Positions 9,280 through 38,223 of a stretch of DNA of 38,882 nucleotides are shown piece by piece. This DNA comes from an uncultured Clostridia bacterium (GTDB lineage Bacteria > Bacillota > Clostridia > Oscillospirales > Ruminococcaceae): the NCBI GenBank assembly GCA_947627875.1, contig CANQXS010000024.1:1-38882 (forward strand), written 5' to 3'. The notes under the pieces were generated by a model. It made no database searches. It worked only from the letters and a program-made list of their open reading frames with translations, and was not told where the DNA came from. The position numbers and the translations under genes are program-made. Position 1 is the first letter of the stretch; the number at the start of each line of letters is the position of its first letter.

Positions 9280-9280
9280 T

Positions 9281-11335: not shown

Positions 11336-11368
11336 CGCCTTTATCCTTTAAAAGAAAGGGAATAAACA

Positions 11369-11809
11369 ATGAAACTCACCTTTAAAAAGCTCCGCGAGAC
11401 CGCGCAGATACCCTCTGCCGCCACAAAGCAGAGCGCCGGTCTCGACCTCAGAGCCTGCATTTCGGAACCGACGGCGATAAACCCCGGGGAAATAGTAAGC
11501 TTCCCGACGGGGCTCGCGGTCTGTCCGGAGCGCAGCGACGTTGTTATGCTTTTATTTATGCGCTCGGGACTCGGCTCTAAATTCGGGCTGACTCTGCCCA
11601 ACGCCGTCGGAGTGGTGGATTCCGACTACCGCGGAGAGATTACCGTCCCGATAATCAACCTCGGAAAGGAGCCCTATATCATGATGCCGGGCGAGAGAAT
11701 GGCTCAGCTCGTCACTCTGCCCGTGATCTTTCCCGAGGTCTGCGAAGCCGAGGAGCTCCCCGAGTCGGAGAGGGGCGAACGCGGCTTCGGTTCGAGCGGG
11801 AGAATGTAA
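11369..11809 (+). CDS. dut: Deoxyuridine 5'-triphosphate nucleotidohydrolase (dUTPase)
   Basis: A 146-aa trimeric dUTPase with all five motifs: I AGLDLRA, II RSGLGSKFGL, III NAVGVVDSDYRGE, IV GERMAQLVTLPV, and V RGERGFGSSGRM. It hydrolyses dUTP to dUMP and pyrophosphate, keeping uracil out of DNA and feeding dTMP synthesis. Length is normal. It is the last gene of the zapA-U32-dut run. Its final 98 bp, including motif V, overlap the 3' end of the convergent AGCS symporter gene on the other strand, an unusual tail-to-tail coding overlap with no terminator between them. Confidence 0.95.
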   Translation: MKLTFKKLRETAQIPSAATKQSAGLDLRACISEPTAINPGEIVSFPTGLAVCPERSDVVMLLFMRSGLGSKFGLTLPNAVGVVDSDYRGEITVPIINLGKEPYIMMPGERMAQLVTLPVIFPEVCEAEELPESERGERGFGSSGRM

Positions 11810-13088
11810 GCTTTATCTCCCGACGGAGCAGAATAAGCGCCGTAAGGCAGGGTATCGCCATAAGCCCGTTGAAGATGTCGCTTATCTGCCAAACCGCCCC
11901 TGCCCCGAAGAGCGTTCCGCAGAACGCCGAGAGGATAAACGCGGCTTTATAAACGCTTTTGCCCTTCTTTAGGAGGAAATCCGCCGCCGAAAGACCTATC
12001 TGTGACCAGCCGACCGCCGTAGCTATCGCGAAGCCCGCGGTCTCGGCGGCAACGAGCTTTCCCGAAAGCCCGCCGAATACCGTCTTTGCGCTTCGGGCGA
12101 CCATCTCCGCGCCCTCGGCAGTTCCGGGGTAAGCCCCCGAGCAGAGCAGCGCGAGCGCGGTGAGGGTGCAGATAACGAAGGTGTCGACTATGACCTCAAG
12201 CATATTCATCATTCCCTGCCTTTCGGGGTCGTCGACCGATGAAGCGCCATGAACCGGCGCCGTCGTCCCGAGACCCGCTTCGTTTGAAAACACTCCCCTC
12301 CTAAAGCCCACGCTCACCGCCGCCGCAAAGCCCACTGCCCCGCCGGCAGCCTGTTTTAATCCGAACGCGCAGGCAAATATCTCGGAAAAAACCGGGGGCA
12401 GCGCCGAAAAATTCGCCGCGATAACTGCCGCCGCCCCCGTTACATAAAGCCCCGCGAGCAGCGGGACCGCCCCTTCGCAGAGTTTCCGCGCAAAGCCGCC
12501 CGAGTCCGCCATACAGCAGGCGATGAGAGCGGCGCAGGCGAGCCCGCATATCGGCTTCGGAAGGGAAAATTCCCCCAAAAGCGCCTCTGCGGCGGAATTG
12601 GTCTGAGCCATCGAGCCCATTCCGAACGATGCCAAAAGGCAGAAAAGCGCGTATACCGCAGCCGTCCGCCCCGCGCCGAGACCGTCTCTCAGGGCGAACC
12701 ATATTCCTCCCCTTCGAGAGCCGTCGGGCAGGTTCTGCCGGTATTTAACCGATAAATACCCCTCGGCGTAGGCTACCGCCATTCCGAAAAACGCCGAGAC
12801 CCAAAGCCAGAATATCGCCCCCGGGCCGCCGAGAGTAAGCGCCGTTGCAACTCCGGTGACCGACCCCGTCCCGACCGTAGCGGCAAGAGCCGTCGAGAGC
12901 GACTGAAAGGGCGAAGCCGCTTTTTCTCCCGAGCTTTCGCCCCCGCGCCAGCTCCCGAATATGCTCTTAAGGCGGAGCTGCGGCAGCCCGAGGCGGAGGG
13001 TGAAATATCCCCCTGCGCCGACTATCAGCGCGACCGTCGGCAGCCCCCAGACCGCCCCGCTTATGAATTCAAGTATTTTGTTAAACAT
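11712..13088 (-). CDS. Sodium/alanine-glycine symporter (AGCS family)
   Basis: A 458-aa integral membrane protein with about 10-11 hydrophobic segments. AGCS landmarks are TALAATVGTGSVTGVATAL, the GPGAIFWLWVSAFFGMAVAY segment and the signature RRGVFSNEAGLGTTAPVHG. The family imports alanine, glycine or glutamine with Na+. ATG 13088 follows GGTGAT, which can pair with the 16S tail. After the last membrane helix and LLRREIKLTF, the final 25-30 residues are Arg/Ser/Pro-rich (SRSNRSRVRPSPTRGA), because they are encoded antisense to dut; this tail is probably an extension created when the original stop was lost. It is divergent from ydbS, with start codons only 27 bp apart. Confidence 0.88.
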   Translation of the reverse strand: MFNKILEFISGAVWGLPTVALIVGAGGYFTLRLGLPQLRLKSIFGSWRGGESSGEKAASPFQSLSTALAATVGTGSVTGVATALTLGGPGAIFWLWVSAFFGMAVAYAEGYLSVKYRQNLPDGSRRGGIWFALRDGLGAGRTAAVYALFCLLASFGMGSMAQTNSAAEALLGEFSLPKPICGLACAALIACCMADSGGFARKLCEGAVPLLAGLYVTGAAAVIAANFSALPPVFSEIFACAFGLKQAAGGAVGFAAAVSVGFRRGVFSNEAGLGTTAPVHGASSVDDPERQGMMNMLEVIVDTFVICTLTALALLCSGAYPGTAEGAEMVARSAKTVFGGLSGKLVAAETAGFAIATAVGWSQIGLSAADFLLKKGKSVYKAAFILSAFCGTLFGAGAVWQISDIFNGLMAIPCLTALILLRREIKLTFSRSNRSRVRPSPTRGAPRLRRPRERSRAE

Positions 13089-13115
13089 AAATATCACCGC
13101 CGAAAGGAGACCCCT

Positions 13116-13562
13116 ATGAGAAAATACACCCTTAAGCCCGCCGCGCTCTATTTTATAGCGGGAGCTATGCTCGTTCTGTCCGCCGCGGCGACTCTGCTTC
13201 TCAGAATATATCTTGTCTCCTTTGAAATTCTTATGTATTCTCTTATCGGATTATTCTGGGGGCTTTCGGTTTTGTTCGGGCTTATCCTTCTGCCGATGTT
13301 CTTCCGCAGGAGCGTTATTTATATCTCTTCCGAGGAAATAACCTTCCATACCGGCTTGATAATGCTTCGGCGCATCCATATGAAGATGTCGGCGGTGCAG
13401 TATGTTACCAGAATATCCGTCCCCCTGCTCACCCTTTTGGGGTTCAATTTCATAATAATCCGCGCCCTCGGCGGGAGCATTATCCTCCCCTTTCTCAGCG
13501 CCGCCGACAGCGACGCGATAACGGATATACTTCATCTTGAGATCAACGGTCACCGCGAATAG
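13116..13562 (+). CDS. YdbS-like PH-domain (bPH2) membrane protein
   Basis: A 148-aa protein: two N-terminal membrane helices (about residues 10-30 and 37-60), then a bacterial PH-like domain (FRRSVIYISSEEITFHTGLIMLRRIHMKM...IRALGGSIILPF). It resembles YdbS of Bacillus, which occurs with YdbT; in B. subtilis that pair has been linked to protection against amylocyclicin-type bacteriocins. AAAGGAG precedes the ATG. It is followed 24 nt later by the larger YdbT-like gene, the usual order. Its promoter must lie within the 5' end of the divergent symporter gene, as only 27 bp separate the two starts. Confidence 0.78.
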   Translation: MRKYTLKPAALYFIAGAMLVLSAAATLLLRIYLVSFEILMYSLIGLFWGLSVLFGLILLPMFFRRSVIYISSEEITFHTGLIMLRRIHMKMSAVQYVTRISVPLLTLLGFNFIIIRALGGSIILPFLSAADSDAITDILHLEINGHRE

Positions 13563-13586
13563 AATTTCTGCGCAAGGAGTGAAACG

Positions 13587-15059
13587 ATGGAACGCGTCGG
13601 CAGACAGCACCCCGTGAGGCTGTTATCCTATACGACAAGATATTTCTGGCTTCTGATAATCCCTCTTATCCGAAGCCTCTATTCGCTGAGCCTTGAAATC
13701 GACGCCTTCCGCGCCTGGATAAAGGGCGCCTGGCTCGACCTTTTGGTCCTCGCGGCGATAATCTGCTTCGCCTGGATACGCTGGCTGAGCGTTTGGTTCT
13801 CTTTCGACGGCGAAAAAATAGTCCTCCGCAGAGGGGTCTATCTCAACGTTGAAGACACCGTTTATTACTCACAAATCACTACTCTGAGTATAAAACAGAA
13901 CTTAATATACAGATTGTTGGGCGCAAGTAAGGTTTATATCGCTACAAACGCCGGAAATTTCAACTCCGCCGACGTCACCGTCACTATGAAGCGCGCCGAC
14001 GCCGACCGCTTTTATGAAGCCGTAAAGGGCTCTCGCCAAAAGAGCCTCAACTACTCTATCTCGCCGAACAAGCTGCGGCTTTTGCTGTTTTCGCTTTTAT
14101 TCAGCTCTACTCTCTCCGGCGTTCTTATAATTATCGCCCTGCTCTTGGAGACCGGCGAGGTTTTCGACCGCGAGATCGAGGCGCGTATAATCCTCGACAC
14201 CCTTACCGAAGCAGTGAACAGGGTCGCGCAATACCTTCCGCCAATCATCTCGCTTATAATCATCGTACTTGCGGGGGGCTGGGCTCTTTCCTTTATCTCG
14301 AACCTCACCGGTTTCTGGGGATTTATCCTCACAAAATGCTCCGATTGCCTTTATGTAAAGAGCGGTATTTTAACTAAGAGCCGCCATGTTATTCTGCGCT
14401 CGAAGATAAACTACTTCGACCTTAAGCAGAGCTTCGCGAGCAAGGTATGCAACCTTAGCTCTCTTCATGTCAACTGCTCGGGCTACGGCTCGACGGGCAG
14501 AAACGAGATGACCGTTATTCTCCCGATAACCACCCGAAAGGAGATAAACGGCACCCTTAAAGAGGTCTTTCCGGAATACCCCCGCCCGAAGGTCGAGCTC
14601 AAATCCGACCCTCGCAGCTACGGCGGATTTTACTTCTGGCCGGTCGTCTTTGCTATCCTCCCCGTCGCGGGATTTATCGCTATCTATTACCTCCTGCCGA
14701 GCTGGTATGTCGTTGCATACCCCGCTGTAGCGATAACCGTTATCCCCGCGATATGGCTCGCTATGTGCAAGACCCTTTCGATGTTCATAACCGGTCTCGG
14801 CTTTAAAGACGGCTATCTCACGATGAGATATTCGCGGCTTTTCACCTTCCATACGATAGTCGCCCCGAAGGACCGCATAACAAAGGCGGTCATAAGGCAG
14901 TCGCCGTTTCAGAGAATGGGCGGCTCCTGCTCGGTTATCATCTATACCAGCTCCGACGTAAAGACAAAACACTACATTTACGGGCTCAGGCTCGACAAAG
15001 CCCTTGCGTTTTTCGAGAAAAACGGCATCGACCTCTACTATTCCGAAAAACCCGCATAA
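13587..15059 (+). CDS. YdbT-like membrane protein with tandem PH-like domains
   Basis: A 490-aa protein with three blocks of paired membrane helices (about residues 20-70, 165-245 and 350-395), each followed by a bacterial PH (bPH2/DUF304) domain, for example SFDGEKIVLRRGVYLNVEDTVYYSQITTLSI and SDCLYVKSGILTKSRHVILRSKINYF. This is the normal YdbT layout, and it directly follows the YdbS partner. The function in this organism is unknown; a membrane complex affecting envelope stress or bacteriocin resistance is plausible from the Bacillus pair. The ATG has AAGGAG upstream. It ends just before a strong tRNA promoter at 15078. Confidence 0.8.
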   Translation: MERVGRQHPVRLLSYTTRYFWLLIIPLIRSLYSLSLEIDAFRAWIKGAWLDLLVLAAIICFAWIRWLSVWFSFDGEKIVLRRGVYLNVEDTVYYSQITTLSIKQNLIYRLLGASKVYIATNAGNFNSADVTVTMKRADADRFYEAVKGSRQKSLNYSISPNKLRLLLFSLLFSSTLSGVLIIIALLLETGEVFDREIEARIILDTLTEAVNRVAQYLPPIISLIIIVLAGGWALSFISNLTGFWGFILTKCSDCLYVKSGILTKSRHVILRSKINYFDLKQSFASKVCNLSSLHVNCSGYGSTGRNEMTVILPITTRKEINGTLKEVFPEYPRPKVELKSDPRSYGGFYFWPVVFAILPVAGFIAIYYLLPSWYVVAYPAVAITVIPAIWLAMCKTLSMFITGLGFKDGYLTMRYSRLFTFHTIVAPKDRITKAVIRQSPFQRMGGSCSVIIYTSSDVKTKHYIYGLRLDKALAFFEKNGIDLYYSEKPA

Positions 15060-26344: not shown

Positions 26345-27055
26345 GTGAACGGCTTTCGCCACGAAATAAAGCTTCTGCTGTCCCCTGCCGAAGCCGCTGT
26401 GCTCCGCACAAAGCTTGCGGCCCTTCTGCCCCTCGACCCCAACTCCGGCGAAAAGGGCGAATATTTTATCCGCAGCCTTTATTTCGACGACCTCTCCAAA
26501 ACCTCGTATTTCGAGAAGCTCGCCGGTGTGAGCGACCGCAAAAAATACCGCCTTCGCGTTTACAACCTCTCCGACTCGGCGATAAAGTTAGAATGCAAGG
26601 AAAAGCGGGGCGACCGCATTAAAAAGCGCTCCGCCTCGGTATCGCGCGAATGCGCCGAAGCGATGACAAAGGGCGATTTCTCGCTCCTCTACGGCTATGA
26701 CGACCCGCTCTGCCGCGAGGTCCTGAGCCTTGCGAGCGGAAAGGGGCTCAAGCCCTCGGTAATAGTCGATTACGACCGCGAGGCATATCTCCACCCCGTC
26801 TCGAACGTCCGCCTTACCTTCGACAAGGCTCTCCACGCCGGAATCGAGAGCACCGACGTCTTCGACGAAAATCTTATGAGCATACCCGTCTTTCCCGACG
26901 GAAGCGTTATTTTTGAGGTGAAATACGACGATATCCTGCCGAAGTTCTTGCAGCAGGTAATCGCGGGAGCAAGAGGTCAGCGCCTCGCCCTCTCGAAATT
27001 CACCCTCTGCCTCGACGGGTTGCACTGCTTCAAACCGAAGCTTCAGCATAAATAA
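26345..27055 (+). CDS. VTC-domain polyphosphate polymerase-like protein
   Basis: A 236-aa single VTC domain of the CYTH/TTM superfamily. It starts at GTG with AAAGGAGG 8 nt upstream. Tunnel-lining charged strands are visible: FRHEIKLLL (4-12), IRSLYFDD, KKYRLRVYN, IKLECKEKRGDRIKKRSA, VIVDYDREAY, VRLTFDK and VIFEVKYDDILP. In yeast Vtc4 this fold polymerises phosphate from ATP; bacterial versions are often annotated as polyphosphate polymerases, but activity is mostly unproven. It is cytosolic and first in an operon with a membrane protein and a DUF4956 protein, the usual partner. CotH-family kinases often co-occur with this pair; one lies 20 kb away here. Confidence 0.88.
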   Translation: MNGFRHEIKLLLSPAEAAVLRTKLAALLPLDPNSGEKGEYFIRSLYFDDLSKTSYFEKLAGVSDRKKYRLRVYNLSDSAIKLECKEKRGDRIKKRSASVSRECAEAMTKGDFSLLYGYDDPLCREVLSLASGKGLKPSVIVDYDREAYLHPVSNVRLTFDKALHAGIESTDVFDENLMSIPVFPDGSVIFEVKYDDILPKFLQQVIAGARGQRLALSKFTLCLDGLHCFKPKLQHK

Positions 27056-27072
27056 TTTTTAAGAGCGATTTT

Positions 27073-27711
27073 ATGGACACATTAGACATCGCCGTTGCGG
27101 CGATAATAGGATTTATCTTGGCGTTTATCCTGCAAACGGTCCTGCTTTCAAAGGCAAAAACCCGCATCGTTAAGCTTCTTCCTGCAATCATATCCGCGGT
27201 CGCAGCGCTGCTGTCCGCTTGCGCGGAGGCGATAAGCCTTTTGACCGTCGGAAGCAGCAACTTTATCCTTGCGGCGGCATTTTTCGCGGCGGGGCTTCTC
27301 GGCTGCGGAGTTGCGGCGCTAATCGGCAAAACGATGACGACAAACGCCGCGGTAATAGTTCCCGTCGCCGCAGTCCTGCTCGCAGTGGGAGCGGTGTTTG
27401 CCGCCGAATGGCGGAACGGGCGCTACAGCAATAACTGGGATCTTCAGGTAAGGATCGATGAGATCACTGCCTCGGAAAACGGCGACCTCAGCGTTGCGGC
27501 AAGCGGAGTAGGGAACGGTGCGGAATTTGACGGCGCAGATTCCGGCATCACGGGCGACATATACTGCGAAGATGAATTTTACAGCCTTTTTATACCGGCA
27601 AAGCTCGCCGAAAAATATAACCTCTATGAGGGAATGGTCCTCAACTGCAACGTAAAAGAGGAAAGCGGCAAAACTACCGTCACAAAAATAGACGGTTCTT
27701 ATAAAAAATAA
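27073..27711 (+). CDS. Membrane protein of unknown function in VTC operon
   Basis: A 212-aa protein I do not recognise. About four hydrophobic helices fill residues 4-23, 33-58, 62-84 and 90-110 (for example AAVIVPVAAVLLAVGAVFAA). They are followed by a roughly 100-residue polar C-terminal domain (EWRNGRYSNNWDLQVRIDEI, then a beta-rich YSLFIPAKLAEKYNLYEG, LNCNVKEESGKTTVTKID) that resembles an OB-like or sandwich fold outside the membrane. It sits 17 nt after the VTC gene and 40 nt before DUF4956, so it is probably part of the same complex. Its start has no strong ribosome-binding site, so coupling to the VTC gene is likely. Confidence 0.7.
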   Translation: MDTLDIAVAAIIGFILAFILQTVLLSKAKTRIVKLLPAIISAVAALLSACAEAISLLTVGSSNFILAAAFFAAGLLGCGVAALIGKTMTTNAAVIVPVAAVLLAVGAVFAAEWRNGRYSNNWDLQVRIDEITASENGDLSVAASGVGNGAEFDGADSGITGDIYCEDEFYSLFIPAKLAEKYNLYEGMVLNCNVKEESGKTTVTKIDGSYKK

Positions 27712-27751
27712 GCCGTAAACCCGGCAAAACCCATATGAAAGGAAAATAAAA

Positions 27752-28411
27752 ATGCAATCCATCCGTTCAGTCCTCCGCGAATCAATCGAGCAGCTCGGTC
27801 TTGTCGAGCACCTGACAGTAGCCTATATTTTGGTGTCGCTTATATGCGCCGCCCTCTGCGGGCTGATAATCTATCTCGTATATAAGATATTCTACCGCGG
27901 CGCGGTCTACAGCGAGAATTTCGCTGTTCTCATCGTCCTTACAACGGTGGTAACGGCGTTTATCGTCATCACCATAGGCTCAAACCTCGTGCTGTCGCTC
28001 GGTATGGTCGGCGCGCTCTCGATAGTTAGGTTCCGCTCGGCAGTCAAAGACCCGCTCGACGTGGGCTTCCTCTTCTGGGGGATAGCCGTGGGCATAACCT
28101 CGGGCGCGGGGCTCTATCCGTTCGCGCTCATCGCAACCGCCGCCATCGCGATAGTTTATATCCTCTTTACCGTTCTGGGAAGGGGCAGGCGGACCTTTGC
28201 GGTCGTCGTAAGATATGAGGACAGGGCGGAAGAGGATCTGAACAAGGTCCTTGCCGAAGTTCACCCGAAGATCAGGGGGCGCGCAAGATACAAGGACGCA
28301 AACGAGCTCACCGCCGACGTTAAGATCAAGCGCGACAGCGACCTCGTCAAAAAGCTCAACGCCGTAGAGGGAGTTATCAGCGCGGTAATGGTGGAATACA
28401 CCGGAGAGTAA
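27752..28411 (+). CDS. DUF4956 membrane protein
   Basis: A 219-aa protein with four hydrophobic helices in the N-terminal 150 residues and the family core SNLVLSLGMVGALSIVRFRSAVKDPLDVGFLFWGIAVGI. A cytosolic alpha/beta C-terminal domain follows (FAVVVRYEDRAEEDLNKVLAEV...DVKIKRDSDLVKKLNAVEGVISAVMVEY), ferredoxin-like in pattern. The function is unknown; DUF4956 genes are typically next to VTC-domain genes, as here, which suggests polyphosphate handling at the membrane. AAAGGAAA precedes the ATG. It ends the operon at a strong terminator. Confidence 0.87.
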   Translation: MQSIRSVLRESIEQLGLVEHLTVAYILVSLICAALCGLIIYLVYKIFYRGAVYSENFAVLIVLTTVVTAFIVITIGSNLVLSLGMVGALSIVRFRSAVKDPLDVGFLFWGIAVGITSGAGLYPFALIATAAIAIVYILFTVLGRGRRTFAVVVRYEDRAEEDLNKVLAEVHPKIRGRARYKDANELTADVKIKRDSDLVKKLNAVEGVISAVMVEYTGE

Positions 28412-29533: not shown

Positions 29534-29754
29534 TTTGTCTCCTTTCGGGTCGTAACGGTTGGTTTGCGGGTGGAAATATGCTTTAGCTTCCACACCCCCT
29601 AATCCCCCTCTCCCTCAGAGAGGAAGAGGGTGTTCCCCAAACTTAAAGACTCACAACCAATTCCCACGCTTACAACAGGCAAACCAACACCACCGACAAT
29701 GCCGGTGGTGTTGGTTGGCAAAAAGTATTCGGTCTGCCTTTCAAAGACAGCCGA
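29534..29754. other. Gap upstream of xylanase: repeat copy 3 and a 14-bp hairpin
   Basis: No gene. About 29587-29631 is the short third copy of the dispersed repeat (first hairpin only: CTTCCACACCCCCTAATCCC, then CTCTCCCTC against GAGGAAGAG). 29682-29716 is a perfect hairpin AACCAACACCACCG-ACAATGC-CGGTGGTGTTGGTT with no T-run, which may insulate the pheromone-type locus from the xylanase promoter region. Confidence 0.7.
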
Positions 29755-29802
29755 AAATTTTCATGCGGTGATATGTTATTATCCTCCGAAATCAGTTAAA
29801 AT
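29755..29802 (+). promoter_or_regulatory. Promoter of the secreted peptide gene with 23-bp regulator element
   Basis: The 23-bp element at 29755-29777 (core TTTCATGCGGTGATATG) is identical to 31022-31044. A -10 TAAAAT lies at 29797-29802, 19 bp after the element, exactly the spacing seen in the second promoter. No good -35 exists; the element occupies its place, which suggests activator dependence. The core reads as imperfect inward half-sites TTTCA-N5-TGATA. Confidence 0.75.
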
Positions 29803-29831
29803 CAAATTATACTGACTGAGGAGGTAATAAT

Positions 29832-30017
29832 ATGAGGTCTGTTTTTCTCAAGCTTTTCTGCGCAGCAGTTGCACTTACGGTGATTTTCAACGCCGCGGGC
29901 AGTCTTCCAGAGCCCGGCAGCGGACCGGCAGACGATTCTGTTGTGCAGGCAGAAGAAGGTTCCGGCGGGGTATCGCCTCTTAACGACGATGATCCGGTTT
30001 ATATTGATACAGACTGA
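29832..30017 (+). CDS. Small secreted acidic peptide, candidate pheromone precursor
   Basis: A 61-aa peptide. Residues 1-23 are a signal peptide (MRSVFLKLFCAAVALTVIFN, then AAG) with a basic start and hydrophobic core. The remaining 38 or so residues contain about 10 Asp/Glu and no Lys/Arg, ending NDDDPVYIDTD. GAGGAGGT 6 nt before the ATG is an excellent ribosome-binding site. It belongs to no family I recognise. The gene converges on an HTH/TPR-like regulator, overlapping its 3' end by 19 bp, and has the same upstream element as the ABC operon. This is the layout of RRNPP/Rgg pheromone pairs, so it may be secreted, trimmed to a C-terminal oligopeptide and sensed after re-import. That function is inferred; the acidity is unusual for known RRNPP pheromones. 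Confidence 0.8.
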   Translation: MRSVFLKLFCAAVALTVIFNAAGSLPEPGSGPADDSVVQAEEGSGGVSPLNDDDPVYIDTD

Positions 30018-30928
30018 TGATCTTTATCAAAATTATTGCGGACTAATTCTTCTAATCTCGCGACTGTATTCGGACCGGTTTTGATGTATTTTGCAAGTAC
30101 ACAGGCGTCCAATGCATACCGTTCAGCCGATTCCTTATCAAGGGGTCGGCTTCTTTTCAGTAAATCATACGACAAATTATACATTGTCTGCACAAGCACG
30201 CTGGCTTTGCCGGTCTTCTTTGCAATGTCTATACCTTCTTTGCAGATTTCTATCGCTTCGTCGTATCTTTCCGCAAGACCGAGATATTTCGACAGATTAT
30301 ATAATATCATCGGGAGAACGCGCATGGCTTCGGTTTTATCGAAAATATCGGAATTGCAATGCTCGCGCAGGTAATACAGCACATTTATTGCATTGTCTCT
30401 GTCACCGACTTCATCGGAGAATATAGCGATATTATTAAGCGCCAAGATTTCCTCGTATGTCAGCAAATGCGGAAGATTCTCCTTTGAGTAATTCGGGTGG
30501 GTAAGCCTGAGGGCGGATTCAAATCTGTTTAACGACTCGGCAGGCTCAAATTCTTTCATATGTACTATAGTATACATTATTTCGTAAAACTGCCTGTCGG
30601 AGGGCGAAAAGTGTTCCGAATATTCCGAAAGCTCGCAAAGATATTCCTCTGCCGCTTTAAAATTATTGGCAGCGTATGCCATACGCGTTTTAAGCTGAAG
30701 GTCGGTCATGTCAAGTTCAATAGAGCCGACGGCAAGGAAAAAAGCCGAGGCTGAATACCCCAGCCTCTGCAAAAGCGCCTGAGCGTGAGCTCTTGTCGGC
30801 GGGTGGGCGCCAGTTTCTACCCGCGAAAGGGTCGCGACCGAGCATATCCCCTCGCTGAGCTCTTCTTGGGTGAGCCCGAGCTCGCTGCGGCGGTATTTTA
30901 TAAACGCGCCTATATTATAGACAGACAA
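29999..30928 (-). CDS. HTH-TPR regulator, RRNPP/Rgg-like peptide sensor candidate
   Basis: A 309-aa protein. Residues 6-60 are an XRE helix-turn-helix (IKYRRSELGLTQEELSEGIC, then SVATLSRVETG). Residues 75-300 are all-helical with repeat-like motifs (AANNFKAAEEYLCELSEYSE; AINVLYYLREHCN; AERYDEAIEICKEGIDIAKK; VLVQTMYNLSYDLLKR), consistent with a TPR peptide-binding domain. The architecture is that of PlcR, Rgg and similar sensors. Translation starts at TTG 30928, with AGGGGG 7 nt upstream and no better start, a rare start that limits expression. It has its own consensus promoter (30971-30999), with a TGTGATA/TATCACA palindrome on the -10, divergent from the ABC operon. It probably activates the two promoters carrying the 23-bp element. 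Confidence 0.85.
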   Translation of the reverse strand: MSVYNIGAFIKYRRSELGLTQEELSEGICSVATLSRVETGAHPPTRAHAQALLQRLGYSASAFFLAVGSIELDMTDLQLKTRMAYAANNFKAAEEYLCELSEYSEHFSPSDRQFYEIMYTIVHMKEFEPAESLNRFESALRLTHPNYSKENLPHLLTYEEILALNNIAIFSDEVGDRDNAINVLYYLREHCNSDIFDKTEAMRVLPMILYNLSKYLGLAERYDEAIEICKEGIDIAKKTGKASVLVQTMYNLSYDLLKRSRPLDKESAERYALDACVLAKYIKTGPNTVARLEELVRNNFDKDHQSVSI

Positions 30929-30961
30929 ATTTATTACCCCCTATTGACTTTGGCGCTTTTT

Positions 30962-30999
30962 TGTGATAAAATAATATCACAGTTCAGAGAAATTGTCAA
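30962..30999 (-). promoter_or_regulatory. Regulator promoter with overlapping palindromic operator
   Basis: On the minus strand TTGACA (30999-30994), a 17-bp spacer, and TATTAT (30976-30971). The perfect palindrome TGTGATA-AAATAA-TATCACA (30962-30981) covers the -10, a natural autorepression site. Its half-site shares TGATA with the 23-bp element. Confidence 0.75.
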
Positions 31000-31021
31000 C
31001 GGCTTTGCGGTTTTTGGCTGT

Positions 31022-31069
31022 AAATTTTCATGCGGTGATATGTTCATTGGAAAAAATCCATGATATAAT
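31022..31069 (+). promoter_or_regulatory. ABC operon promoter with the same 23-bp element
   Basis: The element at 31022-31044 is identical over 23 bp to 29755-29777. -10 TATAAT at 31064-31069 is again 19 bp after the element. The position expected for a -35 holds only TGTTCA, so activation by a bound regulator is likely. The leader before the ATG at 31133 is about 57 nt. Confidence 0.78.
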
Positions 31070-31132
31070 ACCGTTGACGAAAGAATCTTTCGACCCTTTA
31101 CTTACAAAATCCAACCCGAAAGGAGCATAAAA

Positions 31133-33202
31133 ATGCATCCGATAAAGCAGCTTTTGCGCCAGCCTGTGAGAGTTATAGCGGTGATGATACTGCTTGCGTT
31201 CTCGTCTGCGTTCCTGAGCGTCGGCTGGGGGCTTTACAGGTCGGTCGAGGCTACTGCCGAAAACATCGAGAGCAGCTTCGTTACGAGTGTTTCCTTCTCT
31301 TCCCAATACCGCCCCTATCTTTGGAATTTCATAGAGTACGACCCGGTGACCTATATAGTTACGAGCAGCGAATACGAGGAAGTTATTTTGGACCCGAATA
31401 TACAGGTCAACTCCGACGGCTCGATCGGCTTGAACGGGCTGACGAAAGAAGAAGCCGAGGCGAGCATGCCGCGCGTATCCGACTTTTTGGATGCGCTCGC
31501 TGCCTGTCCCGCAATAAAGGGTATCTACCGCCAGCATTTTTCGAGCGCCTATTGCCCGCAAATAACCGCGGCGATCTCTTATTCCCGGTCCGGCGACAGC
31601 TACGACCCCGCTCTTGATGTTCCCTATAACAACGCCGTCGCCGTAATTAAGGTAACGGATATTCACAGAAGCACTCACACATACAGCGGATATACTACTG
31701 CGTTTGACCCGATCTCCCAAAAGATGCAAAGGTTCCAGAACGTCTATTACGACGTTCGCGGAGAAATAATCGAGTTTCCCGCAAGATCGCCGGGCTATTC
31801 TTCGTCGATATGCACCGATGTGGTGTTCTCGGTCGCTCAGCAGCTTTACGAAAACGGCGATGTTTTAAACGAAATACCCTGCGAGGTCGGAAAGACCTAC
31901 GCGGTCGTTCTTCACGAATGCGCCGATAAAGACCTCCTGCTGCGGAAACAAAAGGCTTTTATGATCAACAATAGCCCTAATTTTGCGCCCGCCGAGCCCG
32001 TCACTGCCGAGTCTTTAAACTGGGACGAGGTGCCCTTCGTCCTTTCTGCCTCGGAGCGCGAAGATATAAATGCGTTTTACGGCGAGCTTATTAACCTCAC
32101 CGACGTTTACGAGATGACGGGCAGCCTCGAAGAACTGCTTGCCGACCCCGCAAACAAAGGCTTGGCAGACAACATCGAAAATTATAACCGTCAGTATCAC
32201 TGCGTTTCGGTGATCGGGACCGATGAGCTCGACAGCATACATATCTTCCATGACAACACCGCCTTCGTCTCGGAGGGCAGGAGCTTTGAACCCGAGGATT
32301 ACACCGAGGGCAGAAACGTCTGCCTTATTTCCGAGTCGGTAGCCCAAAGCAGCGGGCTTTCGGTCGGGGATAAGATCGACCTCGAATTTTACGGAATGTA
32401 CGACTCGAACGCCGAGGAATTCAGCCAAAAAACCGGCGACGGCGACAGGGCTGACCTCTACATCTCCTCGGTCAGGACAGAGAAAACTTCGGAATACGAA
32501 ATAATCGGCATTTACCGCAACACGAGCCAATGGAGAGCCTCGGCATACGATTTCCTGCCCAACTCGGTGTTTGTCCCGAACGGCTCGCTCGCGGGAGTAA
32601 CGACCGGTACAAATTCCGGAAAGATGCTGAGTATGGTCGCCGAAAACGGCAGGACCGACGAGATAGTCTCGTTCCTCGAAGAAAACGGCTGGAACAGCGA
32701 AATGCTTGTATTCGATGACGAAGGCTACGCCGAGATCTCGGGCGCGTTAGCCGCTATGAAGGAGAGCGCAATTCAGATGCTCGCGGCTTCTGCGGCTACG
32801 TTTATCGTAATAGCCGCCGCATATATAGCCCTCTTCGTTATGAAGCAGCGCCGAAACGCCGGACTTATGCTCTCGCTCGGTTCGGGCAAGAGCAGGACCT
32901 CCCGATTTGTTCTGACCGTCTCCCTGATACCCGCTCTCATCGCCTCGGTCGCAGGCTCGGTTGCGGGAGCCCTGCTTCTCGGCAGAGTGGTAAAAAGCGT
33001 GTATGCAAACGTCGCCGAGAGCTCCGATTCCTTAGCCGAAGGGGTATCCTCGACGGTAGGAAGCCTCGGCGAGAATCTCGTTATAAACCCGCTTTCGGTT
33101 ATAGCGGTGTTCGCGGCGGCAGCGGCTGCATATCTTATTCTGCTCTTAGCAGTTTCGGCGGTACTTTCGCGCAAAAAGCCGCTCGCTCTTATGAAAAAAT
33201 AG
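31133..33202 (+). CDS. FtsX/MacB-type ABC transporter permease (large ectodomain)
   Basis: A 689-aa permease: one N-terminal helix (about residues 12-32, VIAVMILLAFSSAFLSVGW), a roughly 510-residue extracellular domain, then three helices (about 548-570, 596-620 and 655-682), ending KKPLALMKK. This is the four-helix FtsX/MacB layout, in which the ectodomain couples ATP hydrolysis to movement of peptides or lipids outside the membrane rather than classic transport. AAAGGAG precedes the ATG. It is the first gene of a three-gene operon with a second permease (13-nt gap) and an ATPase. It is likely induced by the neighbouring peptide/regulator pair. The substrate is unknown: antimicrobial-peptide efflux, immunity or signal export are possible. 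Confidence 0.85.
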   Translation: MHPIKQLLRQPVRVIAVMILLAFSSAFLSVGWGLYRSVEATAENIESSFVTSVSFSSQYRPYLWNFIEYDPVTYIVTSSEYEEVILDPNIQVNSDGSIGLNGLTKEEAEASMPRVSDFLDALAACPAIKGIYRQHFSSAYCPQITAAISYSRSGDSYDPALDVPYNNAVAVIKVTDIHRSTHTYSGYTTAFDPISQKMQRFQNVYYDVRGEIIEFPARSPGYSSSICTDVVFSVAQQLYENGDVLNEIPCEVGKTYAVVLHECADKDLLLRKQKAFMINNSPNFAPAEPVTAESLNWDEVPFVLSASEREDINAFYGELINLTDVYEMTGSLEELLADPANKGLADNIENYNRQYHCVSVIGTDELDSIHIFHDNTAFVSEGRSFEPEDYTEGRNVCLISESVAQSSGLSVGDKIDLEFYGMYDSNAEEFSQKTGDGDRADLYISSVRTEKTSEYEIIGIYRNTSQWRASAYDFLPNSVFVPNGSLAGVTTGTNSGKMLSMVAENGRTDEIVSFLEENGWNSEMLVFDDEGYAEISGALAAMKESAIQMLAASAATFIVIAAAYIALFVMKQRRNAGLMLSLGSGKSRTSRFVLTVSLIPALIASVAGSVAGALLLGRVVKSVYANVAESSDSLAEGVSSTVGSLGENLVINPLSVIAVFAAAAAAYLILLLAVSAVLSRKKPLALMKK

Positions 33203-33215
33203 CGCGGTGATCAAT

Positions 33216-34490
33216 ATGATGCCTTTTATGTATCTGAAAAGCAGGTTCACCCGCTCGTTTACGGGAGCTGCTATCATGCTGCTTTTGGCTGCCCTCGGGT
33301 GGTTCTCCTGTCTGTATGCCGGTCTGATAAAAAGCAAGGAATCGGAAAAGCAGGCTGCCTATTCGCTGCCCGTTGAGGTCACCGTCTGCAATCTTCAGGG
33401 TACCGCCACTGACGGGCTGATGATAGTGGGGCGCAGTTACGAAGCTCTCACGCAAGACGCTTTCAGCGACCTTTATATATCCGCCGACCCCGAATACGAG
33501 ACCGTCAAGCCCTATGTGAAGGACGTTAAGATGATGAGCGTCCCGCTTTACTACAGCATTTCCGAGGACGGCGAAATGCTCCCCGTATCCGACCAAAAAA
33601 ATACCTTCATCGGCATAACCTGCCTTGAAGCCGTCGACGATTTCGACCCCGTTATCGGCAACGCCAAGGCGACGCTTATCGAAGGCTCCGACGGCGAGGG
33701 CGTGATCGTCCCGCAGGCGGTATATGAAAAGCTTGAGCCCGACGAAAACGGCGAGCTGAAAATAAGCCTCAGGATAGCCCGCTCGACTTACGGAGAAAGC
33801 CCCTTCTATGACCTCGAATCGGTCGTTTCGGGGTATTACTCGGGCGGCGGTTCGAGCGCAATATACTGCCCCTGGGAGCTTTACGAAAGCATCGCCGCAG
33901 ACAGGCTTCCCCTCAACGGCTCCGGCACACCGGGCTATGCCGCCGCGCAGAGCTTTTCGGCTACGGTCGCCGATAACACCCGGCTCGACAGATTCAAAAA
34001 GGTATTGAGCTATACCTTTTCCGACATCGACCCTTCGGGAAAAGGAGCGGTAAACCCGAATTCCGGCAGCGGCGAGCGCTACACCCTTGCGGCAGTGGTC
34101 CACGACGAGACCCTGCGCGATACCCTTGCGAGCATCAACCGCAGCGTCGGGACGATGAATAGGCTCAGACCGGTGATACTTCTGCTCGAGCTTGTGATTT
34201 CGGCTGCTGCTTCGTATTTTTACATTCATACGCGCAAGCGCGAGCTCGCCGTCGCCCGAAGCCTCGGGACCCGCAGGTCGGCGATAATCTCAACTCTCGC
34301 GCTTGAAATGCTTATCTGGGCTGCATTGGCTTTCGCAGCGGCGTCGCTCGCCTCGGCGATAACTCCGCTCTGCGTTTTCAGCCCCGCTTATATAGCCGCG
34401 GCGGGTCTCGCCTCTGTTGCCGGAGCGGTAATATCCGGAATTCAGGTCACGGGGCGCGCGGGAATACTCGGACTTAAGGAGGAAAACTGA
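33216..34490 (+). CDS. Second FtsX-type ABC permease
   Basis: A 424-aa protein from ATG 33216, chosen because GGTGATC 4 nt upstream pairs with the 16S tail; a GTG at 33207 is the longer alternative. N-terminal helix about residues 18-38 (AIMLLLAALGWFSCLYAGLI), an ectodomain of about 270 residues, then helices near 317-335, 357-380 and 386-408. The VARSLGTRRSAIISTLALEML stretch before the last helices is the usual FtsX coupling region. It ends one base before the ATPase ATG (TGA-T-ATG). It is shorter than its partner but has the same topology, so the two probably form a heterodimer. Confidence 0.85.
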   Translation: MMPFMYLKSRFTRSFTGAAIMLLLAALGWFSCLYAGLIKSKESEKQAAYSLPVEVTVCNLQGTATDGLMIVGRSYEALTQDAFSDLYISADPEYETVKPYVKDVKMMSVPLYYSISEDGEMLPVSDQKNTFIGITCLEAVDDFDPVIGNAKATLIEGSDGEGVIVPQAVYEKLEPDENGELKISLRIARSTYGESPFYDLESVVSGYYSGGGSSAIYCPWELYESIAADRLPLNGSGTPGYAAAQSFSATVADNTRLDRFKKVLSYTFSDIDPSGKGAVNPNSGSGERYTLAAVVHDETLRDTLASINRSVGTMNRLRPVILLLELVISAAASYFYIHTRKRELAVARSLGTRRSAIISTLALEMLIWAALAFAAASLASAITPLCVFSPAYIAAAGLASVAGAVISGIQVTGRAGILGLKEEN

Positions 34491-34491
34491 T

Positions 34492-35166
34492 ATGAAACTG
34501 ACCGTTGACAACGTTTCTTATTCGTACCGTACAAAATACCAGACCGTGAACGCGGTAAAGGAGGTCTCCTGCGCCTTTGAGTCGGGAAGCTTCTACGCGC
34601 TCATCGGCAAGAGCGGCAGCGGAAAATCCACGCTTCTGTCTATGCTCGCGGGGCTCGAAACGCCCGAGAGCGGCTCGGTTTTTATCGACGGCGCAGACCT
34701 TAAAGCCCTCGACGTCGACCGCTACCGCTGCGAGACCGCAAGCGTTATATACCAGAATTTCAACCTTTTCCCGCTTCTAACGGTCCTCGAAAACGTTATG
34801 TACCCGATGCTTCTGCAAAAGAAGCCGAAGGCAGATGCCGAAAAGCGCGCTCTCGAAACGCTTGAGCGCGTAGGGCTCGGCGAAAGTTACAGCCGCAGGC
34901 TCCCCGCGATGCTTTCGGGCGGAGAGCAGCAGAGAGTCGCGATAGCGCGTGCTCTCGCCACCGACGCCGATGTTATCCTTGCCGACGAGCCCACAGGCAA
35001 CCTTGACGGCGAAAACACCGAAAACATTATCGGTCTGCTCGGCTCGCTCGCCCACGAAGACGGTCGCTGCGTTGTGGTCATCACCCACGACCCGAACGTG
35101 GCTCAGGCGGCGGACAGCATTTTCAGAATGGACAGCGGAAGGCTGGAAAACGGCGAAGCTGAGTAG
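34492..35166 (+). CDS. ABC transporter ATPase (MacB/LolD-like)
   Basis: A 224-aa nucleotide-binding subunit. Walker A is GKSGSGKST (39-47), the Q-loop lies in [16 protein letters not shown] (from 87), the signature is LSGGEQQ (141-147), and Walker [13 protein letters not shown] (161-172) is followed by the switch His in [11 protein letters not shown]. The DEPTGNLD form is characteristic of MacB/LolD-type ATPases that work with FtsX-like permeases. All catalytic residues are present. It is translationally coupled to the upstream permease, is the last gene of the operon, and is followed by a terminator. Confidence 0.93.
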
Positions 35167-35227: not shown

Positions 35228-35506
35228 AAACAGATTCCTGTTCGTTTAAAAGCAAGAATCTGTTTCCGTCTTGAGAAAAATAAAAGCGAAATAAATCATC
35301 ATAAATGCTGACGATGATAAGTTTTGAAAATGTTTTGCGGGATATGCATAAGCAGCATTTTCAGAGCAAGATTCTACCGCGGGACCAAATTTCGCAAGTA
35401 TGCTCATTTTGTCTTGAGCGGAATCTTGTTGGGGAGTAGCCTTCCCCAAACCCTGCTTTATATAAAAATGATACCAACGTGCCAAATTGATACGTTGGTA
35501 TTTTTA
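35228..35506. other. Hairpin-rich left end of mobilizable element, oriT candidate
   Basis: Four stems: AAACAGATTC against GAATCTGTTT (35228-35265); CAAGATTC-TA-CCGC against GCGGAATCTTG with a 2-nt bulge and about 37-nt loop (35367-35428); TTGGGGA against TCCCCAA (35429-35449); and ATACCAACGT against ACGTTGGTAT plus a T-run (35471-35506), the last a good terminator. GTCTTGAG is a direct repeat at 35268 and 35411. The bulged stem upstream of mobC is where an oriT is expected, but no nic site can be assigned. Confidence 0.45.
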
Positions 35507-35641
35507 TATTTAAATTCTTTCCACGTCAGTTGCTTTTTCTCAAATTTAAGTGTTACTGAAACAAAAACAGCCACTAAAAATTGCACAACAAGCTGATTGC
35601 AAAAATCTCAGCTTTTGTATTAAACGGAGAAATTTTGAATT

Positions 35642-36265
35642 TTCGGCAAACTTTTTTGAAAATTACCCAGAAATTTGCTTAAAAAATGTCCGCTTAGGGT
35701 GATGGGGCATATAAAACTTGGACGTTGTGATTTATCTGGCGGAGAGAATTCACATAAAATTTACATTTGCCACCCCATATTTTTTCAAGAAAATGTCCGT
35801 TTAGTGTGAAAGAAAAAATTATTTTGATTGGATACCTGCTTTTTGAAGAAAAAATGTACGTTGTAATATGAAAGGCGTTTTTTCATTCACAAAAAATTTA
35901 CAAAGTTGCATATGGTCATTCGATGAAAATTTGTCCGTTGTAAAGTGAGAGGGGGATAATTTTTCAGCATTAGTGGACAAACCCGCCTTGAAATGTCCGT
36001 TATAAAGCAGAAGGATTTTTCTGATGAGATTGGCAAAAAATAATTTTTCGGTGTGGAAGGAACTGAAGGCTTGGCAAAATCGAAAAATTTGCGTTTGGGG
36101 TAATCGGAAGAATGTTGTTCACGAAAATTTTACAATTCTTATACCGATCATCTGCCAAAAAAATGTACGTTGTATTGTGAGAGGAATGTAAATTAAGTTC
36201 ATATAAAATTTACATTTCAAGTGTCACCAATCGCGCAAAAAATGTACGTTGTAAAGTGAAAGGGG
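35642..36265. repeat. Array of about eight units with conserved arms and variable core
   Basis: The right arm, roughly AAAAATGTMCGTTGTAAAGTGAAAGG, recurs with its TGT (or equivalent) at 35687, 35794, 35855, 35932, 35994, 36088 (degenerate), 36164 and 36243. The left arm, roughly TTCACATAAAATTTACA, is clear at 35749, 35886, 36118 and 36198, always 45-46 nt before a TGT; degenerate forms precede other copies. The 20-25 nt between arms are not conserved. Steps between units range from 61 to 107 nt. The last right arm runs into the mobC ribosome-binding site (GTGAAAGGGGG). No ORF fits this 1.1-kb gap. Confidence 0.7.
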
Positions 36266-36272
36266 GCTTTAT

Positions 36273-36671
36273 ATGTCAAAGAAGTATAACACGCCCAAAC
36301 GCAACATCGTTGTCAAAACCAGAATGACCGTTGAGGAGTACGCAGACTTCACTGAGCGCGCAAAGTTTTGTGGGATTAGCCAGTCTGAATTTATCCGTCA
36401 GGCCATCGAGAACGCTGTCATCAAGCCGATTATCACCGTCTCACCCGTCAATGAAAAGTTTCTTTCGGCTGTCGGTCAGCTAACCGCACAGCTTGGCAAA
36501 ATCGGCGGGAATCTAAACCAAATCGCACGGTATCTCAACGAAAACGGTGTGCCATATAACACACTTTATGTCGATGTGCAATCTGCAATTTCCGACCTTG
36601 CCGATTTGAAATTTGAAATCCTGCGAAAGGTAGGCGATGCGGTTGGCGACGTTCAAACACTTAAGCTCTAA
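36273..36671 (+). CDS. mobC: MobC-like relaxosome accessory protein
   Basis: A 132-aa protein: an N-terminal ribbon-helix-helix-type DNA-binding region (VVKTRMTVEEYADFTERAKFCGISQSEFIRQAIENAV) followed by the MobC signature QLGKIGGNLNQIARYLNENG (about residues 73-92). MobC-type proteins bind oriT and help the relaxase melt and nick it. AAAGGGGG precedes the ATG and is part of the last unit of the upstream array, so MobC or the relaxosome may bind the array. The gene overlaps the relaxase start by 35 bp in another frame, giving translational coupling. Confidence 0.9.
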   Translation: MSKKYNTPKRNIVVKTRMTVEEYADFTERAKFCGISQSEFIRQAIENAVIKPIITVSPVNEKFLSAVGQLTAQLGKIGGNLNQIARYLNENGVPYNTLYVDVQSAISDLADLKFEILRKVGDAVGDVQTLKL

Positions 36672-38223
36672 AAATGCAGATTACGGTGCCGCGGAGAAAT
36701 ATTTGGTGTTTGAACACGATGAGTTCACAAACAAGCCTATTTTCGATGAAAGTGGTAGGTTGATTCCGCGAGTAAACTGTCGCTTCACTACTCTGAATTG
36801 CGGCGATGATGATTTCGCGATCGCCTGTATGAAGTCGAATCTGCATTACGGCAAAAACCGCAGTCGGGGCGACGTTAAGTCGCACCACTACATAATCAGC
36901 TTTGACCCGCGCGACGGCATTGAGAACGGTTTGACAGTAGATAAGGCTCAAGAGTTGGGCGAGCAGTTTTGCCGTGAGCACTTCGCAGGACATCAGGCGA
37001 TTGTCTGCACTCATTCCGATGGTCATAATCATTCGGGCAACATTCATTGCCACATAGTTATCAACAGCTTACGAATTGCTAACGTGCCACTCCTGCCGTA
37101 TATGGACCGCCCTGCCGACACACGCGCAGGTTGTAAGCACCGCTGCACCGAAGCGGCTATGAATTACTTTCGGGCAGAGGTTATGGAGATGTGTCAACGT
37201 GAGGGATTACATCAGATTGTCCTTTTGGGTGGAAGTGGCGAGCGAGTTACCGAGGGCGAATACTGGACAAAACGCCGCGGTCAGGCAGAATTGTCTGACA
37301 GCGGCAAACCGACAAAGTTTGAAACAGACAAAGAAAAGCTGAGAAAAATAATCCGCTCGGCTCTTTCCTCAGCAAATGATTTTGACGAGTTTGCAGAGCT
37401 TTTGTCACAGCAGGGTGTGACAGTCAAACAAAGCCGTGGACGGTTAAGTTATCTAACGTCAGACCGCACCAAACCTATCACTGCCAGACGGCTGGGCGAT
37501 GATTTTGACCTGCCCGCAATAAATGCCGTTTTTGAGCAGAAATCGAGACAGTTGGCGCGAAACGGAGAGCAGGGCGTATCATCTCGGCCGAGTATCCTCA
37601 AGCGTTTACAAGGGGCAAAAAATGCGAAAATCGACACTTATCACGACAGTATTTCGCACATGATCGATGTAACGCCTGACAAGGGCGCGAGGTTTGAGCA
37701 TTGGGCAAAAGTTTTCAACCTTAAGCAGTCGGCAAAGAGCCTTGCAGAGCTTGAAAAGTACGGATTCCAGTCGCTCGAAGATTTGCAGAATGCTATTGCC
37801 ATTGCAAAAGCAGATGAGCGTAATTGTAGGGAGAAGCTCAAAGCTGTCGAGACTGAGCTTTATGGCAAAAAGGGGCTTCAAAAACGAGTGCTTGCGTATG
37901 CAAATACAAGGTCAATTCGGGACGAATATAAGGCGTTGAAGTCTGACCGAGCGAGGGAGAAATTCCGAAAGCAGCATGAAAGCGAATTTATCATTATGGA
38001 GTCTGCCCAGAAATATTTCAAAGAGCATGGTGTTACCAAAATACCGAGCTATAAGACTTTGCAAACCGAAATTGAACAGCTGACATCACAGCAGAATGAC
38101 TTGTATGAGGAGTTGAATGAAAAGCGCAGTGAAGTTAAACGATTAAAAACAATCAAAGACAACATTGAACGAACTTTGCATGAGGAATCAAACAAAATTA
38201 AAAACAAAGATTACGAAATTTAA
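36637..38223 (+). CDS. Relaxase / mobilization nuclease (MobA/VirD2-like, PF03432 type)
   Basis: A 528-aa protein. The N-terminal MRLATFKHLSSKNADYGAAEKYLVFEHDE carries candidate catalytic tyrosines (Y16, Y22). The metal-binding histidine motif is HSDGHNHSGNIHCHIVIN (126-143; H130, H132, H137, H139). Residues 230-285 form a conserved relaxase follow-on domain (LRKIIRSALSSANDFDEFAELLSQQGV). From about 370 to the end it is helical and charged, likely coiled coil. It nicks oriT and leads the strand into a recipient. There is no VirD4/VirB gene in view, so the element is mobilizable, needing another element's transfer machine. A decayed homologue of its tail lies at 1005-1172. Confidence 0.93.
   Translation: MRLATFKHLSSKNADYGAAEKYLVFEHDEFTNKPIFDESGRLIPRVNCRFTTLNCGDDDFAIACMKSNLHYGKNRSRGDVKSHHYIISFDPRDGIENGLTVDKAQELGEQFCREHFAGHQAIVCTHSDGHNHSGNIHCHIVINSLRIANVPLLPYMDRPADTRAGCKHRCTEAAMNYFRAEVMEMCQREGLHQIVLLGGSGERVTEGEYWTKRRGQAELSDSGKPTKFETDKEKLRKIIRSALSSANDFDEFAELLSQQGVTVKQSRGRLSYLTSDRTKPITARRLGDDFDLPAINAVFEQKSRQLARNGEQGVSSRPSILKRLQGAKNAKIDTYHDSISHMIDVTPDKGARFEHWAKVFNLKQSAKSLAELEKYGFQSLEDLQNAIAIAKADERNCREKLKAVETELYGKKGLQKRVLAYANTRSIRDEYKALKSDRAREKFRKQHESEFIIMESAQKYFKEHGVTKIPSYKTLQTEIEQLTSQQNDLYEELNEKRSEVKRLKTIKDNIERTLHEESNKIKNKDYEI

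Follow-up and report, generated by a model that had tools for sequence, protein, structure and literature searches.

We analysed a 38,882-nucleotide stretch of DNA from an uncultured Clostridia bacterium of the Ruminococcaceae (contig CANQXS010000024.1 of assembly GCA_947627875.1), hereafter called the window, in which a small peptide gene, a regulator gene and an ATP-binding cassette (ABC) transporter operon lie side by side. The regulator gene and the peptide open reading frame (ORF) are convergent and overlap by 19 bp, the operon is divergent from the regulator gene, and an identical 23-bp element precedes both the peptide gene and the operon. We consider it probable, at roughly three chances in four, that the locus is a PlcR-like quorum-sensing module of the RRNPP class, in which peptide-dependent activation would provide positive feedback on the peptide gene and drive the ABC operon as its output. 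An original prediction, made by reading the letters alone, had described the 61-codon ORF, the convergent regulator with its 19-bp overlap and the divergent permease-permease-ATPase operon, and all of these were confirmed. The features of the locus are as follows.

29755-29777, + strand: element copy 1, AAATTTTCATGCGGTGATATGTT, with the core TTTTC-N7-GATAT; proposed operator of the peptide gene
29797-29802, + strand: -10 of the peptide gene, TAAAAT, 22 bp after GATAT; poor -35
29820, + strand: GGAGG, Shine-Dalgarno-like, ahead of the peptide ORF
29832-30017, + strand: 61-aa propeptide gene; homologues under purifying selection
30928-29999, - strand: PlcR-like RRNPP regulator, 309 aa, TTG start; HTH_3 at residues 10-61 plus a helical domain of the tetratricopeptide-repeat (TPR) type
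30999-30971, - strand: regulator promoter TTGACA-17-TATTAT, near-consensus
31022-31044, + strand: element copy 2, AAATTTTCATGCGGTGATATGTT, in the divergent region between regulator and operon; proposed operator of the ABC operon
31064-31069, + strand: -10 of the ABC operon, TATAAT, 22 bp after GATAT
31133-33202, + strand: ABC permease 1, 689 aa, with MacB_PCD and FtsX domains
33207-34490, + strand: ABC permease 2, 427 aa, FtsX-like, below the Pfam cut-off
34492-35166, + strand: ABC ATPase, 224 aa; best NCBIfam matches are to LolD and to a bacteriocin-export family, neither above its cut-off
30125-30151, + strand: terminator-like stem inside the regulator gene, which could end the peptide transcript; consensus match only
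30944-30972, + strand: promoter-like TTGACT-17-TAAAAT ahead of element copy 2; consensus match only

The scan for promoter-like sites found 5 where 2.5 were expected. The regulator's own near-consensus promoter would be compatible with constitutive expression.

The regulator and its peptide gene

What kind of protein is the regulator? In a profile search the PlcR structure 2qfc matched at E 8.8e-12, covering positions 2-298 of the 301 in the profile, and Rgg2 (5w4m) stood far below it in the same comparison (E 1.6e-3). PlcR was also the top match when predicted folds were compared, with 17-20% identity in the structural alignments; similarity to PlcR holds over the full-length sequence and in the fold. 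HTH_3, a helix-turn-helix (HTH) domain, scored above its cut-off, and TPR_12 (E ~2e-4) and RNPP_C (E ~3e-4) both fell below their Pfam gathering scores; RNPP_C was present in 22 of 37 regulator homologues at E 0.01. At 309 aa, with an N-terminal HTH and a TPR-type domain, the protein has the RRNPP receptor signature, which allows 250-500 aa (PMC10075063). The original prediction had spoken of the RRNPP/Rgg class; RRNPP was upheld by profile and predicted fold, whereas the closest relative proved to be PlcR and not Rgg. Judged by profile and modelled fold, the regulator is a PlcR-like RRNPP protein, nearer PlcR than Rgg.

Regulator matches at E 0.001, some of them HTH-only, were found in 21 of the 31 genomes of the genus, with up to 4 in one genome. 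After the exclusion of 7 of the 48 genus matches (HTH-only matches, a fragment and G020:C8), 41 remained, and these together with a relative at 34% identity in a Clostridiales metagenome-assembled genome (L008) gave 42 matches with flanking sequence; here L numbers denote regulator loci, G numbers genomes and C numbers contigs. The alignment (A1, 37 rows) omits L072, L077 and L078, which are fragments or interrupted, and L063 and L064, near-copies of L062. Among 247 genomes of the bacterial family, 9 carried matches at 1e-20, in 5 of 126 genera, and one genome of another genus (G174) carried 6 regulator matches. A phage or plasmid origin found no support: only four phage records, from human fecal samples (25.6-47.9% identity), and four plasmid records, from Bacilli (22-26%), match the regulator. 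At L044 of G022 (7622-8700) the regulator has an abnormal C-terminus that stops 73 bp short of a tRNA-Ser gene, suggestive of truncation by integration, and no peptide gene accompanies it; contig C1 of this genome contains a further, short piece of a regulator.

The window propeptide has a signal-like start, consisting of a basic N-terminus and a hydrophobic stretch as judged by hydropathy only, and an acidic C-terminal part ending in VSPLNDDDPVYIDTD. At 61 aa and with its 19-bp overlap, its gene lies within the range applied to propeptide genes (10-100 aa, -60 to +400 bp of the receptor). The original prediction proposed that such a small ORF should recur beside homologous regulators, and it did: a convergent signal-peptide-like ORF was found at the regulator 3' end at 25 of the 42 loci, with a filter requiring convergence, 35-100 aa, a Shine-Dalgarno-like sequence, a basic start, a hydrophobic stretch and an end within -60 to +100 bp of the regulator stop. 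Applied to the 316 other ORFs at these loci that reach 200 aa, the same filter passed 7, and the small ORFs beside them were by eye unlike the family. All but one of the 25 overlap the regulator, by 4-37 bp, and that of L008 lies at +51. In other genera, under a slightly laxer filter, 7 of 14 loci in three of four genera had such an ORF, ending -8 to +6 bp from the regulator stop.

In 19 peptide pairs more than 50% identical, the ratio of nonsynonymous to synonymous substitution rates was 0.00-0.49, with the last 13 codons omitted on account of the overlap; the pairs are not independent, very close pairs carry little information, and the window peptide is too diverged for any pair. By this sequence measure, the homologues appear to be under coding (purifying) selection. 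By eye, the peptides share the signal-like start and the acidic C-terminal part, and many contain P-x-C-[DE], the window peptide having SPLNDDD. In the RRNPP class the mature peptide would be taken up by an Opp-type permease; the genome encodes three SBP_bac_5 proteins, which may or may not handle this peptide.

The duplicated element and its counterparts in related genomes

The two copies of the element differ by 0 mismatches, and both -10s begin 19 bp past its end, that is, 22 bp past GATAT. Identity between the copies ends at the element borders, and the -10 spacing is nonetheless kept. None of 100 dinucleotide shuffles of the sequence contained two matches at up to 3 mismatches, and the 2.57-Mb genome contains no third copy at that threshold and 0 sites for the reversed pattern. 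At a 17-bp spacer the -35 hexamers are TGTTAT (peptide gene) and TGTTCA (operon), neither of them good. The earlier reading of the element and of both promoters, made on the same points, was thus correct.

Relatives have the motif and its spacing in common with the window, not all 23 letters. Among peptide promoters of the clade closest to the window (L038, L041-L045), TTTTC-N7-GATAT, replaced in L038 by TTTGC-N7-GGTAT, stands at the window's distance from the -10. This distance is 22 bp in 12 of 13 related promoters and 21 bp in one; two of the 12 (the G000 C15 peptide gene and the G019 ABC operon) have an equally scored hexamer at 17. For ten of the 13, the spacing played no part in the search; nine of these stand at 22 bp, the tenth at 21. 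Across the 31 genomes, the pattern TTTTC-N7-GATAT-N22-TANNNT occurs at 29 sites (reversed control, 1). Five clade genomes account for 12 sites, 10 of which lie at regulator loci (G000 4/4, G019 3/3, G017 2/2, G024 1/2, G022 0/1), and G030, with a more distant regulator, has none. The other 17 sites lie outside the clade, 0 of them at the regulator loci compared, and many of these may be ordinary promoters. Eight of the 12 clade sites were known before the pattern was written, and three of the four new ones were at regulator loci. The five clade peptide promoters compared all have poor -35s (TGTTAT, TGTTCA twice, TAGTCA twice), and a full TTGACA occurs at two element-bearing target promoters, those of the G019 ABC operon and of the G000 C15 divergent promoter. 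On these sequence patterns, the element is a likely operator of the regulator family.

The paralogous system on G000 contig C15 has one site before a solute-binding lipoprotein gene divergent from its peptide gene; a second site, one letter off the window core and about 2 kb away from the regulator, precedes a further lipoprotein gene. At this locus (L038; G000:C15 ~11570-13644), the lipoprotein gene behind the third element-like site has an early in-frame stop.

Does the element accompany the operon elsewhere? Within the genus, G019 has the sole clear orthologue of the operon protein P0003, and two further matches stand at E 2.5e-5 and 3.5e-4. G019 contains the whole operon (29, 36 and 70% identity to the window proteins) behind a related regulator on the same strand, with a likely start about 110 bp past the regulator stop, as judged by eye (the longest frame would begin inside the promoter). 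As had been predicted for orthologous operons, this sole clear orthologue carries an element, in the species' own version: TTTTCACGAAATGATAT precedes it, 22 bp from TACACT. The exact 17-mer occurs once more in G019, on another contig, before the peptide gene of a second system. Window and G019 elements differ in 4 of 17 letters, and within each species the two promoters agree. This association rests on one orthologue and counts as one independent case. A search for the element in relatives returned 14 matches, of which the 5 exact ones were used; the 9 with 2 mismatches compare with 7 in the reversed control, and the only one of them used is the mirror half at G019:C23:14915, part of the peptide promoter region. 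The sole exact copy in G022 precedes a lipoprotein gene, a homologue of which (by eye) lies in G019 past the promoter divergent from the peptide gene.

Between the two G019 regulators, identity is 94% over residues 1-62 and 53% over the TPR part. This conservation of the HTH alongside divergence of the sensor supports the HTH as the part that would read the element. L042/L043 (92 and 96% in HTH and TPR part) and L042/L044 (95 and 90%) show no such contrast. HTH identity is 90-94% among regulators with the same operator at their loci (L041, L042, L043). The tree places the operon-linked G019 regulator with L038/L045, weakly (83/55). The simplest reading of these sequences would be HTH exchange or homogenisation.

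The proposed circuit and its alternatives

In the proposed module, the mini-gene would yield a Sec-exported propeptide; an acidic C-terminal fragment of it would be imported and bound by the convergent regulator through its TPR-type domain. The regulator itself would bind the element, abutting the degenerate -35 at a fixed 22 bp from the -10, and bring in RNA polymerase both at the peptide promoter, which would give positive feedback, and at the divergent ABC operon, which would be the output. Convergent transcription through the overlap may also exert negative feedback on the regulator. The fixed distance and the poor -35s suggest that the regulator contacts polymerase next to sigma. The positive-feedback peptide quorum switch of the original prediction is well supported in outline, from the identical operators to the PlcR-like predicted fold; we infer the export, maturation and import of the peptide, its role as ligand, DNA binding, activation over repression, density sensing and the cargo of the pump.

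Several observations weigh against this proposal. Exact duplication of the element was rejected as a general rule, as a second copy above shuffle level occurs at 1 of 25 peptide loci, that of the window alone, in the available flanking DNA. A symmetric operator in the window was likewise rejected (palindrome p 0.48; p-values from 100 shuffles). A palindrome lies 5' of the peptide gene at p <=0.05 in 15 of 25 peptide loci (rows not independent), and in the larger clade it often stands, by eye, between outward-facing promoter-like sequences. The L038 peptide promoter carries the variant TTTGC-N7-GGTAT, and 3 of the 13 related promoters were found by a pattern that already fixes the 22-bp spacing. 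Two of the sites outside the clade have neighbours of interest, G006:C1 being about 5 kb from an HTH-only match and G028:C77 about 1 kb from a weak permease 1 match. The + strand promoter-like site at 30944-30972 may also serve the ABC operon. No peptide gene was found beside the operon-linked regulator of G019. Most of the propeptides, which measure 46-79 aa, exceed the 21-50 aa of validated ones (PMC10075063). Finally, a strict peptide ORF is missing at 17 of the 42 regulators; L056 and L046 among them retain a peptide-like frame without a proper start, L044, L072 and L078 are truncated, fragmentary or interrupted regulators, and the remainder may be orphan regulators, may only receive a signal, or may not be receptors for peptides at all.

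Could the same parts operate with the opposite sign? A peptide-free regulator might repress both promoters over the -35, with relief by the peptide, as in PrgX- or Rgg3-like systems. The element touches or overlaps the -35, and a protein bound there could stand in the way of polymerase; the two target promoters with a full TTGACA may need no activator. However, poor -35s at five of the five clade peptide promoters are what activator dependence predicts, and PlcR, to which profile and fold bring the regulator closest, is deposited as an activator of transcription; we regard repression as unlikely. It seems improbable, too, that the regulator senses another cue, such as a drug or a pump substrate, and that the mini-protein acts not as a signal but as an effector, for example a bacteriocin or a partner of the pump. 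The length and acidity of the peptides, with a CxxxC segment at many larger-clade loci (by eye), are unlike short hydrophobic pheromones, several loci adjoin FtsX-type pumps, and the regulators lacking a strict peptide ORF would fit such a role, yet in fold and profile the regulator belongs with peptide receptors, and amid varied genes (ABC importer, radical-SAM maturase, peptidases, FtsX permeases) the neighbour that recurs is the convergent mini-gene.

The element might also belong to another, global regulator and lie beside this one incidentally. This we consider very improbable, given only two window-type sites genome-wide, the concentration of the general pattern at regulator loci of this family (10 of the 12 clade sites, in five genomes, and 0 of 17 elsewhere), and the near-identical HTHs of L041, L042 and L043. 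That the repeat is due to chance or to a recent, functionless segmental duplication is hardly credible: the identity of all 23 letters would suit a duplication, but no shuffle reproduced the pair, identity stops at the element ends while the -10 spacing persists, and other species have the motif with its spacing unchanged.

Neighbouring genes and known systems

The transporter resembles MacB/LolCDE/FtsX-type systems in its MacB_PCD plus FtsX permease and its LolD/MacB-like ATPase, and differs from them in having two unequal, separate permeases and no adaptor gene between 31133 and 35166. All 25 NCBIfam matches listed for the ATPase were below cut-off.

Relatives of the regulator stand beside other genes, the role of which as targets is suggested by position. 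FtsX-type permeases adjoin L057, L058, L059 and L071, an ABC ATPase L070, a binding-protein-dependent importer L038 and a solute-binding protein L045. At L043 of G024 (9203-13201), divergent from the peptide gene behind a mirror half of the operator, lie a small Cys-rich ORF, a radical-SAM/SPASM maturase (best match a Clo7bot maturase, below cut-off) and an S41-type protease-like gene; a radical-SAM peptide maturase is also found in streptide loci, and these genes are possibly a peptide-controlled cluster for a ribosomally synthesised and post-translationally modified peptide (RiPP). C39-like peptidases at L051 and L049 (the latter just below cut-off), an M23 peptidase at L052 and a trypsin-like protein at L077 (below cut-off) lie past the peptide gene as recurrent neighbours and are perhaps targets or peptide-processing enzymes. 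Domain searches gave no match for a 135-aa secreted protein at L042 or a 395-aa protein at L067. We tentatively suggest a new PlcR-like subfamily, in which HTH and sensor would evolve as separable modules, paralogues would retain or swap a nearly identical HTH, and with it a shared operator, as their sensors diverge, several signals, including those of peptide-less receivers such as G019 C1 beside the orthologue of the ABC operon, would converge on one pump, and other members would be re-wired to RiPP maturases, peptidases or importers.

Elsewhere in the window, a strong hairpin (29683-29720, CCAACACCACCG...CGGTGGTGTTGG) separates the peptide promoter from the divergent GH10 xylanase gene, which starts at ~29533, and a VTC-domain gene, another gene and a DUF4956 gene (26345-28411) precede the xylanase gene, which is on the opposite strand. 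Directly 3' of the ABC operon is a mobilisation module (35363-38223) with a MobC/NikA-like gene (36273-36671) and a relaxase gene (36637-38223). Segments from its non-coding end match, at 73-84% similarity, DNA just past the G019 operon orthologue (L041 13312-13849) and DNA beside the G024 regulator (L043 7049-7699), where a relaxase piece (91%) is also present. The switches may ride on, or neighbour, a mobilisable element.

By profile and fold, the best solved-structure relatives are PlcR-PapR of the Bacillus cereus group and, in the streptococcal branch, TprA, RRNPP proteins with five TPRs. The module is like PlcR-PapR in its HTH and TPR-type domain, its adjacent, putatively Sec-type propeptide and the expectation that one regulator drives both the peptide gene and the targets; it differs in its convergent, overlapping peptide gene, acidic peptide ends, bacterial group and low structural identity, and in an operator, TTTTC-N7-GATAT, placed 22 bp before the -10. 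The PlcR box is TATGNANNNNTNCATA, a palindrome, and the papR-type gene lies downstream of plcR on the same strand. PlcR proper was rejected, given that the window element does not fit this box by eye and that the window and 24 of the 41 other loci have a convergent peptide gene.

In group III Rgg/SHP systems, such as rgg1299 of Streptococcus thermophilus, the peptide gene is convergent and overlaps the regulator end (PMC13361665), as in the window. This class was also rejected, on the ranking of PlcR over Rgg2 and because the peptide is longer and acidic and SHPs are hydrophobic. The Qsr-Qsp systems of Clostridium acetobutylicum likewise comprise several HTH-TPR regulators per genome with small propeptide genes downstream (PMC7376267); Qsr proteins have 6-8 predicted TPRs and Qsp peptides 39-50 aa with conserved C-terminal Leu, Pro and Trp (PMC7376267), whereas the receptor here is of PlcR size and the peptide ends are acidic. 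We conclude that this is an RRNPP system near PlcR that departs from PlcR in box and gene arrangement and from Rgg in peptide type.

RRNPP_detector reported 12,050 strict pairs and tens of thousands looser ones (PMC10075063), among which the subfamily may be present. In the RRNPPA survey, matches occurred in several genera, all but one within Bacilli (PMC9765709). Analyses of 2023 and 2025 include Clostridia (PMC10075063, PMC12700828), and words beginning Ruminococc, Oscillospir or Lachnospir are absent from both main texts, where the genus may be covered under another name. In the open-licence papers of PubMed Central searched, PMC12445099 among those compared, no fitting description of a system of this kind was found.

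The family combines several regulators per genome, paired mini-genes and diverse neighbours with a readable operator that predicts targets genome-wide, and its members carry versions of the switch beside different genes. Peptide quorum sensing thereby becomes directly testable in this bacterial group, and the regulators with the same HTH and different sensors offer a natural pair for studying the re-wiring of signalling circuits.

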